Assembly: GCA_027004715.1 (NCBI GenBank)
Contig: JALTHG010000005.1
Span: 1 to 40,412, forward strand
DNA length: 40,412 bases
Direction of reading: 5' to 3'
DNA from: Deltaproteobacteria bacterium
GTDB taxonomy: Bacteria; Desulfobacterota; Dissulfuribacteria; Dissulfuribacterales; UBA3076
In this document: piece by piece, positions 6,101 to 39,706 of the stretch
How positions within the stretch are numbered: the first letter of the stretch is position 1
Layout of the letters: each line of letters starts with the position of its first letter
Notes under the pieces: model-generated
Told to the model about the DNA's origin: nothing
The model's input: the letters and a program-made list of their open reading frames with translations, nothing else
Databases searched by the model: none
Translations under genes and position numbers: made by a program

Positions 6101-6177
6101 CCGCCCATGGCTCAATTGGATAGAGCAGCGGACTTCTAATCCGCAGGTTGAGGGTTCGAGTCCCCCTGGGCGGACCA
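6101..6177 (+). tRNA. tRNA-Arg (anticodon TCT)
   Basis: Cloverleaf by eye: acceptor ccgccca/tgggcgg, D arm gctc..gagc, anticodon stem gcgga-cttctaa-tccgc, T arm gaggg-ttcgagt-ccccc (one A-C mismatch), discriminator A, encoded CCA. Confidence 0.92.
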
Positions 6178-6283
6178 CTTGACTGATTCCAGATATAGGC
6201 AGGTGCCTGATCTTGTGCATCGAGGTGCTCCTGAGACCCTGAGAAAGGCCACTGCCGGCCGGAGAAATGTGAATACTTACCTA

Positions 6284-17421: not shown

Positions 17422-17466
17422 TAATGCGCGGATTGACAGGCAGAGTTTCTGATCCTGTGCATCAAG

Positions 17467-17985
17467 CTATGCCCCTTTTTTGGCATAATCAGCCCTTGGA
17501 TGTAAGCTCGACCTGACTCTATAGGACTTTAAGTAGAGATCTATCATTGCCTGCCTCAAGTCTTGATCCTGGATGCCTGCTGTTATCTCCCTGGCCCTAT
17601 CTATCAGGGCATCTTGAGAGACCCCCTTTTCTTCTTCTGATATATCTCTCTCTGCCGTCTCCCTTGAGACCCATTGGGAACGCACTCTTGCCACATCACC
17701 CAGGACAAATCTGATATCTTTGATTTTGGTATCTGTGTCTAGACAGGCGTTTAGACGTTCCAGAAATAGCTGCCTCTGGAGAGAAAGCTGTTGCATCCAG
17801 ACTGAATCCGAGACCACTACTACCAACATGTCTTTCCCCATAAAGCGTTCTGGCCATGCATGGGCCGCAATCTGGGGACCTACTATCTCTTCCCAGACCT
17901 CCCAGATCTTTCCTCTGGATAACCTGGAACTCCAACCATATCTGAGGGCAATCTCTCCCAATATTTCTGCAAGTCTGGTAGGCAT
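17467..17985 (-). CDS. DUF721 (DciA-like) protein
   Basis: WEEIVGPQIAAHAWPERFMGKDMLVVVVSDSVWMQQLSLQRQLFLERLN matches the DUF721/DciA pattern. Confidence 0.8.
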   Translation of the reverse strand: MPTRLAEILGEIALRYGWSSRLSRGKIWEVWEEIVGPQIAAHAWPERFMGKDMLVVVVSDSVWMQQLSLQRQLFLERLNACLDTDTKIKDIRFVLGDVARVRSQWVSRETAERDISEEEKGVSQDALIDRAREITAGIQDQDLRQAMIDLYLKSYRVRSSLHPRADYAKKGA

Positions 17986-20661: not shown

Positions 20662-21055
20662 TGCAAGGACAGAATTGATAGATATCACCGGGCAGATACA
20701 ACAGGCAGTATCTAGAGCAGGGCTGGAGGATGGCCTTGTCTTTATCTATGTGCCTCACACCACTGGAGGTGTCATCATCAATGAGGGTGCAGATCCAGCC
20801 GTCAGGCGAGACATAATATCTGTCTTAAATATGGTGATACCCTGGGAATTTGACTATCACCATCAGGAAGGCAACTCTCCTGCCCATATCAAGTCATCGC
20901 TGGTAGGTCCAGGCGTACACGTAATTGTAGAGAAGGGTAGGTTGTGTCTTGGTACATGGCAGAAGATATTCTTCTGTGAGTTCGATGGGCCAAGAAACAG
21001 AAAGGTGTGGATAAAGCCCTTATCAGACCTGGGCAGATCACATGACACTAAATAG
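20636..21055 (+). CDS. YjbQ/UPF0047 family (secondary thiamine-phosphate synthase) protein
   Basis: FIYVPHTTGGVIINEGADPAVRRDI and HIKSSLVGPGVHVIVEKGRLCLGTWQKIFFCEFDGPRNRKVWI; start taken at ATG 20636 (MEIISVKS). Confidence 0.9.
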   Translation: MEIISVKSNARTELIDITGQIQQAVSRAGLEDGLVFIYVPHTTGGVIINEGADPAVRRDIISVLNMVIPWEFDYHHQEGNSPAHIKSSLVGPGVHVIVEKGRLCLGTWQKIFFCEFDGPRNRKVWIKPLSDLGRSHDTK

Positions 21056-21110
21056 TCTGATCAAAGGGCCCTGGCCTGCTGAGGATACAGCTGTCTCTCA
21101 GACATCGAGA

Positions 21111-21240
21111 GTAAGTGTTTACATCTCCTCGGTCAGCTGGCCTTTCAGGAGCGGCTTGATGCACAAAATCAGGGTCTGCCTGTTAATCCGCACTGAGACC
21201 CTCCAAGATGCCACCAGTGGCCGGCGACGTAAACGGTTAC
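21111..21240 (+). repeat. full-length 130-bp MITE-like element with imperfect terminal inverted repeats
   Basis: Left end GTAAGTGTTTACATCTCC, right end reverse complement GTAACCGTTTACGTCGCC; internal segments realign to 6195-6280, 17426-17467 and 35206-35286. Confidence 0.75.
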
Positions 21241-22121
21241 CATTTAAGGCCCTCGTGGTCTTTTTCTTGTTATGTCTATTCGTGTCTCGTGTCTCTCTTG
21301 CCTCAAGGGCTGCAGGTACCTCTATCTGGGACCCTCTTATACAACGTCTGGTAAAAGATGGGGAAAATGGGACGTCAATTCGCCGCATCTTTGCCAGACC
21401 AGAGGTAAAATTTGACCCCAGGGTCATGCCCCGTAAGCTCTCACACAGGGAAAATAGACTCGATTACAGAAAGTTTTTGAGGCCCGAGCGTATTGCAAGG
21501 GCCCGGTCTTTTTTACACAGGAATATGGAGCTCTTGACCCAGATAGAGGACATATATGGGGTCCCAAAGGAGCTAGAGGTGGCAATCCTCCTTATAGAGA
21601 CCGATCTTGGCCATTATCTGGGCTCTGACCTTAGCTTTAATGTATTGGCGAGCATGGCCCTGGCATGCGATTTAGATCGAGTGAGGCCCTGGCTTTCTCC
21701 TGAGGTAATCTCATCTATGGGGACAAGAGACCTGAGAGAGAGACTCAGAAGGAATTCGCAGTGGTCCTATAGAGAGCTTAAGGCACTCATTACTTATTGT
21801 ACACAGAACCGAATTGATCCACTGACGATCAGGGGCTCTATCTTTGGCGCCATAGGGATGTGCCAGTTTATGCCCTCGAGTGCACTCTGTTTTGGAGTTG
21901 ATCAGGACCATAACGGCCGGATAGACCTGTTTTCAAAAGGAGATGCCCTTGCCAGTATGGCAAAATACATCAAATACCACGGTTGGAGACCAGGTCTCAG
22001 CCGCAGAGAACAGGAGGCAGTGATCCTCAAATATAACCACAGTCTCCCCTATGCAGAGACTGTCTTAGAGGTGGCAGACAGGCTCTCTGATCCCCGGAAC
22101 AAAGGGGATGGGTCCAGGTAA
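21159..22121 (+). CDS. MltB-like lytic murein transglycosylase (SLT_2)
   Basis: EVAILLIETDLGHYLGSDLSFNVLASMALACD, GSIFGAIGMCQFMPSSALCFGVDQDHNGRIDLF, MAKYIKYHGWRPG. Track start 21042 lies inside yjbQ; ATG 21159 gives a shorter n-region before the hydrophobic signal segment. Confidence 0.85.
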   Translation: MHKIRVCLLIRTETLQDATSGRRRKRLPFKALVVFFLLCLFVSRVSLASRAAGTSIWDPLIQRLVKDGENGTSIRRIFARPEVKFDPRVMPRKLSHRENRLDYRKFLRPERIARARSFLHRNMELLTQIEDIYGVPKELEVAILLIETDLGHYLGSDLSFNVLASMALACDLDRVRPWLSPEVISSMGTRDLRERLRRNSQWSYRELKALITYCTQNRIDPLTIRGSIFGAIGMCQFMPSSALCFGVDQDHNGRIDLFSKGDALASMAKYIKYHGWRPGLSRREQEAVILKYNHSLPYAETVLEVADRLSDPRNKGDGSR

Positions 22122-31088: not shown

Positions 31089-31150
31089 GTAACCATTCAC
31101 AGGTCCTGAAGAGGCCACTGCTGGCAGGGATGTGAGGGGTTGAGTATTAC
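31089..31150. repeat. short MITE-like element copy
   Basis: GTAACCATTCACAGG...GCCACTGCTGGCAGGGATGTGAGGGGTTGAGTATTAC; shares ends and GCCACTGCYGGC core with other copies. Confidence 0.6.
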
Positions 31151-35205: not shown

Positions 35206-35286
35206 GTAACGCACATCCCCTTCTGGCCAGCAGTGGCATTTTGAAGGTTTCAGTACGGATTAACAGCCAGGGATGTGAACAATTAC
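35206..35286. repeat. MITE-like element copy upstream of gmd
   Basis: GTAACGCACATCCCC...GGGATGTGAACAATTAC; reverse complement aligns with the distal half of the 21111-21240 element (ctgttaatccgYactgaRacc...atgccac). Confidence 0.7.
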
Positions 35287-35384: not shown

Positions 35385-37367
35385 TTATGGCGCGCCCAGT
35401 TCCCGGATCCTGTCTCTGAGCTCAGCGGCCTCCTCGAATCTCTGTTCTGCCGCAGCGGCCTTCATCTCTTTTTCAAGAGACTTGATATAGGCCTCCAGGT
35501 CTGCTGTATCCATAGAGTCTCTATCTAGAGTTGTGACCCTGTCTGGCCCTGGCACCTGTTCCACCTCATAGATAAGAGACAGGGCATCTCTGGTGGTCTT
35601 CTTTATGGTGACTGGAGTGATATTATGGATTCGGTTGTACTCTATCTGCAGACTGCGTCTGCGCTCTGTCTCTTCAATGGCCCGCTTCATGGATGCTGTA
35701 ACCCTGTCTGCATAGAGCAACACCAGCCCATTGGCATTTCTGGAGGCCCGCCCTGCTGTCTGTATGAGGGACCTCTCTGAACGGAGGAAGCCCTCCTTGT
35801 CTGCATCCAGGACGGCCACCAGGGATACCTCTGGGATATCCAGGCCCTCCCTCAAGAGGTTTATACCTATCAGTACGTCAAAATCTCCCTGCCTCAGGCC
35901 CTGGATCAACTGGCTCCTCTCTATGGTCTTTATATCAGAATGCAGGTATTCGACCCTGACACCCACTGAAGAGTAATAGTCTGTGAGGTCCTCTGCCAGC
36001 CTCTTTGTCAGGGTGGTAACCAGCACGCGTTCACCCCTTGCCACGATCTTTCTTATCTCTTCCAGGAGGTCATCTACCTGTGTGATGGCAGGCCTTACCT
36101 CCATCCGCGGGTCTATAAGACCTGTGGGTCTTATGAGCTGCTCAACTATCACTCCCGCGCTCTTTTCCAGCTCATAGGGGCCCGGAGTGGCAGAGATATA
36201 GATGGCCTGGCCTATGGCCTTTTCGAACTCGTCCGACCTGAGTGGCCTGTTGTCCAGGGCCGAAGGGAGCCTGAACCCAAACTCTACAAGGGTCTCTTTC
36301 CTGGAACGGTCTCCGGCATACATGCCCTTTATCTGTGGGATAGTTATATGGCTCTCATCAATAAAGGTGATAAAATCCTCTGGAAAGTAGTCTAAGAGCG
36401 TGGGAGGTGGCTCTCCTGGGAGGCGGCCTGAGAGGTGCCTTGAGTAGTTTTCGATCCCATGACAATAGCCCAGTTCCTCCAGCATCTCTATATCCAGATT
36501 GGTCCTCTGCTCAAGGCGCTGGGCCTCTACCAGGCGGTTCCTGGACTCAAAAAACAGGAGCCTCTCGTCCAGCTCTGCCTTGATGCCCAGGATGGCCCTC
36601 TCTAATACATTCCCAGTGGTCACATAGTGGCTCGAGGGATATATCACGACATCTCTCAGGTGAGCAATGACCTGTCCCCTGAGGGGATCAATGACACAGA
36701 TGTCCTCTATCTCGTCTCCAAAGAGCTCGATCCTTATGGCATGTTTTTCTTCATGGGCAGGGAAGACCTCTACTATATCTCCCCTGGCCCTGAAGGTCCC
36801 TCTATGGAAATCGATATCGTTGCGCTCATAGAGCATTGCAACCAGCCTGGCCAGGATATCTTCCCTGGACAATTCATCACCTACCCTCATATATAGCTGC
36901 ATCTCTTGATATTCTTCAGGAGAGCCCAGGCCATAGATACAGGACACGCTGGCGACAATTATTACATCTCTCCTGGTAAGCAGAGAGCGGGTGGCAGAGT
37001 GGCGGAGCCTGTCTATGAAGTCGTTGATAGATGAGTCCTTTTCAATATATGTGTCAGACTGTGGAATATAGGCCTCTGGCTGGTAGTAGTCATAATAGCT
37101 CACAAAGTATTCCACTGCATTCTCAGGGAAAAGGGCCTTGAATTCCCCAAAGAGCTGTGCGGCAAGGGTCTTGTTTGGCGCAATCACCAGTGCAGGCCTC
37201 TGTACCTGGGCAATTACATTGGCCATGGTAAAGGTCTTTCCCGATCCAGTTACCCCAAGGAGGACCTGGTGTCGAAGGCCCCTGTTAAGGCCATCGACAA
37301 GAGAGGCAATGGCCTTTGGTTGGTCTCCGCATGGAGAAAAGTCTGAGTGTATGCGAAAGCTCTCCGT
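35385..37367 (-). CDS. uvrB: excinuclease ABC subunit B, with probable non-canonical ACG start
   Basis: Body is UvrB ([49 protein letters not shown]). The track start (37226) lies after the Walker A; the frame remains open to 37367: (T)[46 protein letters not shown]. Confidence 0.9.
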
Positions 37368-37413
37368 TCACACCTCCTTATTTCGGGTGCCGGCCAGGGA
37401 TGTGAACAGTTAC
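37365..37413. repeat. short MITE-like element copy overlapping the uvrB 5' end
   Basis: CCGTTCACACC...GCCGGCCAGGGATGTGAACAGTTAC; inverted ends, right end identical in pattern to other copies. Confidence 0.6.
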
Positions 37414-37429: not shown

Positions 37430-38485
37430 TTACAATACTGGCCAGTAATCCCTCTGGATATCTATTACATCTTTTATTACTTTTGGACCAGATCTAGAAT
37501 TATTTAATCTGGAGACAGTATCTCTATCTAAGATGCTCATGGACTTACATTCACACAGGACGGCAAACACACCCTCCCTGAGTCCTGAGAGGTTGTATCC
37601 ACCTTCAAGACAGAAGAGTATCCGTCCATTACAACAGGACTCTGCCAGTTCGAGCAAGACCCTTGCCAGATAGGCAAAGCCCTTGATGCTGACCTCCATG
37701 CCTCCTAGAGGGTCCATCTTATATATATCAAAGCCTGCTGAGACGAGTATAAAGTCAGGAGAGAAAGACTTGCCTATAGGTCTTACCAGGCGGTTATAAA
37801 TGGCGGCAAAGTCCTCATCACCGGCACCAGGACTCAAGGGCACATTTATTGTGAAACCCCTTCCCCTGGCCTCACCTATCTGATCTACACTGCCGGTCCC
37901 TGGATAATAGGGGAATTGGTGAGTAGAAAAATACAGTACATCGGGATCTCTATAGAAACTGCGTTGTGTACCATTTCCATGATGGAGGTCCCAGTCTACT
38001 ATCATGACTCGCTTATAGCCAAGGACCTGCCTTATATAGTGGGCACCGAGGGCCACATTATTAAAGATACAGAAACCCATGGCATGATCTGCCTCTGCAT
38101 GGTGCCCTGGGGGACGCACCAGGGCAAAGCCGTTTTTTACCTCAGGCCCTGCAATCAGGTCCAGGGCGGCAAATACTCCACCTGCAGCCAGACGGGCCAC
38201 CCCCCATGAATTCCTGTTGGTAGATGTATCTGGATCCAACTGCGAAAAGTCTCTGCCAGCAGTCCTGGCTATCTCTTCTATATAGGTGCCTGTATGATTC
38301 CACAGGAGTTCATCTCTGCTGGCCAGCCTGGGGACAACAGTCCTGAATATACCCCTGACCTCTTCGCTATCCAGATATTCATAGATGACCTCCAGGCGCT
38401 CGGGCGATTCTGGATGGCCAGGGCCCTGGTCATGCTCAAGATACCTGGGGTCTCTGACTACTGCTGTAGTGATGTAACTGTTCAT
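37430..38485 (-). CDS. histone deacetylase/acetoin utilization (HDAC) family protein
   Basis: RPPGHHAEADHAMGFCIFNNVALGAHY, IVDWDLHHGNGTQRSFY, SAGFDIYKMDPLG motifs; ATG at 38485. Confidence 0.93.
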   Translation of the reverse strand: MNSYITTAVVRDPRYLEHDQGPGHPESPERLEVIYEYLDSEEVRGIFRTVVPRLASRDELLWNHTGTYIEEIARTAGRDFSQLDPDTSTNRNSWGVARLAAGGVFAALDLIAGPEVKNGFALVRPPGHHAEADHAMGFCIFNNVALGAHYIRQVLGYKRVMIVDWDLHHGNGTQRSFYRDPDVLYFSTHQFPYYPGTGSVDQIGEARGRGFTINVPLSPGAGDEDFAAIYNRLVRPIGKSFSPDFILVSAGFDIYKMDPLGGMEVSIKGFAYLARVLLELAESCCNGRILFCLEGGYNLSGLREGVFAVLCECKSMSILDRDTVSRLNNSRSGPKVIKDVIDIQRDYWPVL

Positions 38486-38536
38486 AGCCCCTCCGTAACC
38501 GTTCAATTCCCCTCTGCCAGGGATGTGAACAATTAG
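38474..38536. repeat. MITE-like element copy/tandem termini overlapping the HDAC-gene start
   Basis: GTAACTGTTCA-TAGCCCCTCC-GTAACCGTTCAATTCCCCTCTGCCAGGGATGTGAACAATTAG. Confidence 0.6.
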
Positions 38537-39467: not shown

Positions 39468-39689
39468 AGATTTATCTCCACAAGTCTTGTTTTCCTCTGT
39501 GAACTCTGCGCCTTGAGCAGAGCAGGTGATTTAACCCATTAATTAACAGATAATCCCAATTTATGCACTCAGCTATCAAAAAATCCATAACTTCTCAATA
39601 AGTTGTGGCACATTTTGGTAACCAATTGCAGGCTAACCCCCTTACCCTGCCTTCTCCCCAGGGGAGAGGTTTGGGTGAGGGGGAACAGG

Positions 39690-39706
39690 GGAATGTGAAC
39701 GGTTAC
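39690..39706. repeat. MITE-like element terminus
   Basis: GGAATGTGAACGGTTAC matches the right-end consensus RGGRATGTGAACRRTTAC. Confidence 0.45.

Follow-up and report, generated by a model that had tools for sequence, protein, structure and literature searches.

An unnamed MITE family with IS66-type ends in a deltaproteobacterial genome and its relatives

Repeat copies and their surroundings in the window

The window, by which we mean the whole 40,412-nucleotide stretch analyzed here, is contig C5 of a 1.44-Mb MAG (93% complete, 100 contigs). At 21111-21240 it carries a repeat copy that directly precedes the conserved region of a gene for an SLT_2 transglycosylase. An ORF at 21042-22121 reads through this copy; we take the read-through to be accidental, because the SLT_2 match starts at residue 97, past the repeat, and because the congener (genome G001) lacks the repeat at this position. 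A second copy, at 6185-6280, is bordered by a tRNA gene (6101-6174) on one side and by the 3' terminus of the adjacent ORF on the other, and the well-supported copies in the window lie at or between ORF edges. All loci that we assign to the family, with varying support, are collected in Table 1.

Table 1. Loci of the repeat family in the window, with profile and end-motif support
Position	Strand	Description	Support
21111-21240	+	MITE, near full-length, 130 bp; short form, lacking the additional right end; terminal sequences GTAAGTGTTTACATCTCC / GTAACCGTTTACGTCGCC	Profile E=8.6e-27
6185-6280	-	MITE with GTAAGTATTCACATTTC as its left end; breaks off at profile position 108	Profile E=5.8e-18
17426-17476	-	Internal MITE fragment (profile positions 50-101), no ends; between convergent ORFs	Profile E=3.2e-9
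35206-35286		MITE reduced inside, both ends recognizable (GTAACGCACATCCCC... / ...GGGATGTGAACAATTAC)	End motif with 1 mismatch; profile matches on opposite strands, 35222-35272 (E=6.3e-9) and 35212-35253 (E=4.6e-5)
37365-37413	-	End-only copy, GTAACTGTTCACATCCC at 37413-37397	Exact end motif; profile 37389-37413, E=0.018
38474-38536	+	Mini-copy composed of ends; a third one lies inside, at 38495	Two mismatches in each end; profile 38474-38523, E=0.021
31089-31150	+	Probable decayed mini-copy, one end GTAACCATTCACAG	Profile 31105-31141, E=0.28 (marginal)
39690-39706	-	Single MITE end on its own; a second repeat family lies close by at 39588-39632 (BLAST)	Motif only, 1 mismatch

The initial annotation had treated these eight loci alike, as members of one dispersed family. 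To obtain the E values in Table 1 we built a profile from 41 full-length copies and then scanned the window with it; the reversed window, scanned as a control with the same profile, gave nothing better than E=3.1. Four loci are solid, two are weak and two are marginal or end-only; the family is confirmed, yet the eight loci are unequal members of it. Comparison with the congener, which covers the part of the window beyond 1-20500, supports the mini-copy at 38474 as a member because a 93-bp insertion of the window relative to the congener begins exactly there. The marginal locus at 31089-31150 falls inside a stretch of about 370 bp that is absent from the congener.

Two other kinds of repeat were noticed. 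About seven tandem 21-bp units of the TCAAAGCGTTTGTCGACCTGC type at 1829-2058, within a minus-strand ORF (1585-2166), look like a heptad-coding repeat. A second repeat family, with ends GTAACTTCTCAATAAGTT, is present in the window at 39588-39632 and 2538-2558, in the congener (G001:C81, L199 near 1016-1253) and at L208 near 160-370; it also has 8-bp duplications (TGGATAAA, GGAGAATC) and often holds a nested copy of the MITE family. In one genome of the sister genus (G007), an element of about 3 kb (L115 381-3392) combines ends of the type of this second family with an IS66-type ORF.

Anatomy, number and age of the copies

The elements measure 130-173 bp, have no coding capacity and carry terminal inverted repeats (GTAACYGTTCACAYYCCC), as expected of MITEs in size and structure. 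By end pairing, the longest copies are about 145-170 bp in the window's own genome and 168-173 bp in the congener. The consensus of the 41 copies is 173 bp long and folds end to end (-96.6 kcal/mol); one full-length copy folds with z = -11.3 relative to shuffles, and the window copy at 21111-21240 folds moderately (z = -2.7). We distinguish two forms. The short form of 146-149 bp, which is the one seen in the sister genus, is a simple foldback, and the window copy, which matches profile positions 1-148, belongs to it. In the long form of about 173 bp, an extra 25 bp or so at the right adds an outer end beyond the inner one.

A genome-wide search found tens of dispersed copies with the same termini, far beyond chance, and so bears out the dispersed family with common ends that had been described from the window. 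The end motif GTAACYGTTCACATCCC, allowing at most 2 mismatches, has 133 matches in the window's own genome, compared to 2 for the reversed motif used as a control, and BLAST with window positions 21100-21250 as query hits 40 places in that genome. At least 40 copies are present in the congener, and related copies occur in five species of the sister genus. The copy at 21111-21240 is about 80-85% identical to many copies over about 100 bp, and most copies in the window's own genome share 71-90% identity with it over the part matched by BLAST. Given this divergence, and given that copies in this genome are often without clear target duplications, the family looks old and decayed in the window's own species. 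A recent burst is suggested for the sister-genus genome G008, where all 8 copies that we compared are identical.

Target duplications and empty sites

Mobility of the repeat is supported by the sequence at its borders. Among 117 end-to-end pairs, a set that includes some nested alternatives of one copy, 35 are flanked by perfect 8-bp repeats, whereas controls averaged 0.17; perfect flanking repeats of 4-7 or 9-12 bp occur in none of the 117. The family therefore shows a target-site duplication of constant length, 8 bp, as MITEs are expected to. Reduced copies share this property: 4 of 25 short pairs are end-to-end mini-copies of 41-64 bp with duplications matching at 7 of 8 positions (control, 0), in agreement with the variable internal deletions noted at the outset. 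Counting against this picture, the flanks of the copy at 21111-21240 agree in only 4 of 8 bases.

Empty orthologous sites are found in both directions relative to the congener. The copy at 21111 is missing from its orthologous site in G001:C81, where the flanks can otherwise be aligned, and the insertion at 38474, likewise missing from the congener, has an imperfect 8-bp repeat on its two sides (GTAGTGAT / AGAGTGAT). In the reverse case, a 64-bp copy in G001:C81 is bordered by AACTAGCC/AAATAGCC where the window has an uninterrupted CTAAATAG. One orthologous stretch of this congener contig (L204 2311-2410) contains a run of N beside two near-identical pieces, so this region of the congener is not fully read. 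Shared termini, 8-bp duplications, empty sites and an IS66 transposase gene with matching ends (described below) together uphold the reading of the repeat as a non-autonomous mobile element.

An IS66 partner and the place of the family among known elements

The gene with matching ends comes from relatives; a search of the window's own MAG for IS66 transposase (PF03050) found none. In the sister genus, genome G007 contains a 1648-bp IS66 element (L097) whose single ORF of at least 150 aa encodes a 519-aa protein (PF03050, E=1.6e-31). Its ends are GTAACCGTTCACTCCCCCC on the left and GTAATCATTCACTCCCCCCTG on the right, and this left/right asymmetry recurs in the MITEs of G007, which have GTAACCGTTCAC and GTAATCATTCACTTCCCCCC. 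With a single DDE_Tnp_IS66 ORF and neither TnpA nor TnpB, L097 has the organization of the ISBst12 group; no target duplication was seen at L097 itself. Close relatives or pieces of its transposase occur in genomes G006, G008 and G010, and the pieces in G010 end the same way. We also considered as partners the multicopy IS66-like ORFs (560 and 729 aa) of G007 but set them aside, since no matching ends were found around them in a search in which two of the stretches hold runs of N.

In the congener, contig G001:C404 (L218) begins with the C-terminus of an L097-type transposase, a match of 33 residues at the contig edge with 64% identity over those 33 aa. An IS end comes next; its terminal 24 bp (ACAGGAGGGGGTGTGAACGGTTAC) are identical to MITE consensus positions 150-173. 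This identity points to the IS66 partner and would account for the additional right end seen in the long form. Outside the ends, no similarity was seen between the MITE and the IS66 partner. Further along the same contig (L218 100-360), internal MITE sequence comes directly after the IS66 end, and more repeat ends come after that; this arrangement is either a group of elements nested in one another or a junction made in assembly.

Based on these data, we propose that the repeat is very probably a MITE whose ends are recognized in trans by a single-ORF, ISBst12-like IS66 transposase. In this model both ends of a gene-less element of about 146-173 bp would be bound by the transposase, which would insert it at staggered cuts and so generate the 8-bp duplication; this mechanism is read from the duplications, and the attribution to IS66 from the ends together with the duplications. 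The published ISBst12-group element ISDge4 has the terminal inverted repeat GTAACTGCTCAGCA, an 8-bp direct repeat and one ORF (PMC12898284). In common with this group, our family has ends that start GTAAC.G.TCA, an 8-bp duplication and a single transposase ORF in the partner. Unlike ISDge4, the MITE has no gene and an interior not visibly related to the IS, and the ends of ISDge4 differ in detail.

We consider it improbable that the MITE belongs to another DDE family with 8-bp duplications (IS256-, ISL3- or IS1595-like, for instance): target length alone does not name a family and the DDE search covered IS66 only, but GTAA-type termini belong to IS66 elements, and the 24-bp identity lies in an end directly after an IS66-type transposase reading frame. 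We give equally little credence to the idea that the copies are kept mainly for an RNA hairpin, as a terminator or mRNA stabilizer, with mobility only in their past origin. Some copies do lie at gene 3' ends (6185-6280, and 17426-17476, which two convergent ORFs enclose), and folding is strong in full-length copies, but the window copy folds only moderately, copies decay freely, and those in G008 are identical and apparently fresh. Least plausible, and rejected here, is the REP/BIME-like alternative also raised by the initial annotation, in which a RAYT (Y1) transposase would mobilize palindromes: the repeats are likewise short, mostly intergenic and strongly palindromic (in the full-length copy), but they have 8-bp target duplications, two equivalent inverted ends as in a transposon and an IS66 partner with matching ends, while no Y1_Tnp match was found in the window's own MAG and those in the congener are all short and weak.

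The IS66-dependent MITE that we favor belongs to a known kind. Like Chunjie from Geobacter uraniireducens, QMITE2 and MITEAba12 (PMC10969869), it is shorter than 500 bp, has terminal inverted repeats and a foldback structure, varies in size, is mostly intergenic and shows target duplications in young copies; this comparison is one of description. The main text of that review makes no mention of IS66, and the literature searched held little of direct use on IS66-derived MITEs. MITEs as a kind are already known, as are IS66 elements with both GTAA ends and the 8-bp duplication; new is this family, which is unnamed in the literature searched (ISfinder not included).

The two forms of the element suggest a further, more tentative idea, which we consider somewhat less likely than its opposite: the MITE and its IS66 partner may exchange ends. 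A foldback of about 148 bp would have gained the terminal 25 bp or so of a local IS66 element, giving the 173-bp double-ended form that would then have spread in this genus; on this view, the MITE would have taken the right end of its long form from the IS. If this is true, end exchange would let old MITEs stay compatible with a transposase that changes over time. The family otherwise represents ordinary genome biology, and it provides a clear case, across several genomes, in which MITEs and a single-ORF IS66 element form a pair. Given that copies are identical in G008 and decayed in the window's own genome, these differing ages make the family a usable system for studying the burst and decay of MITEs.
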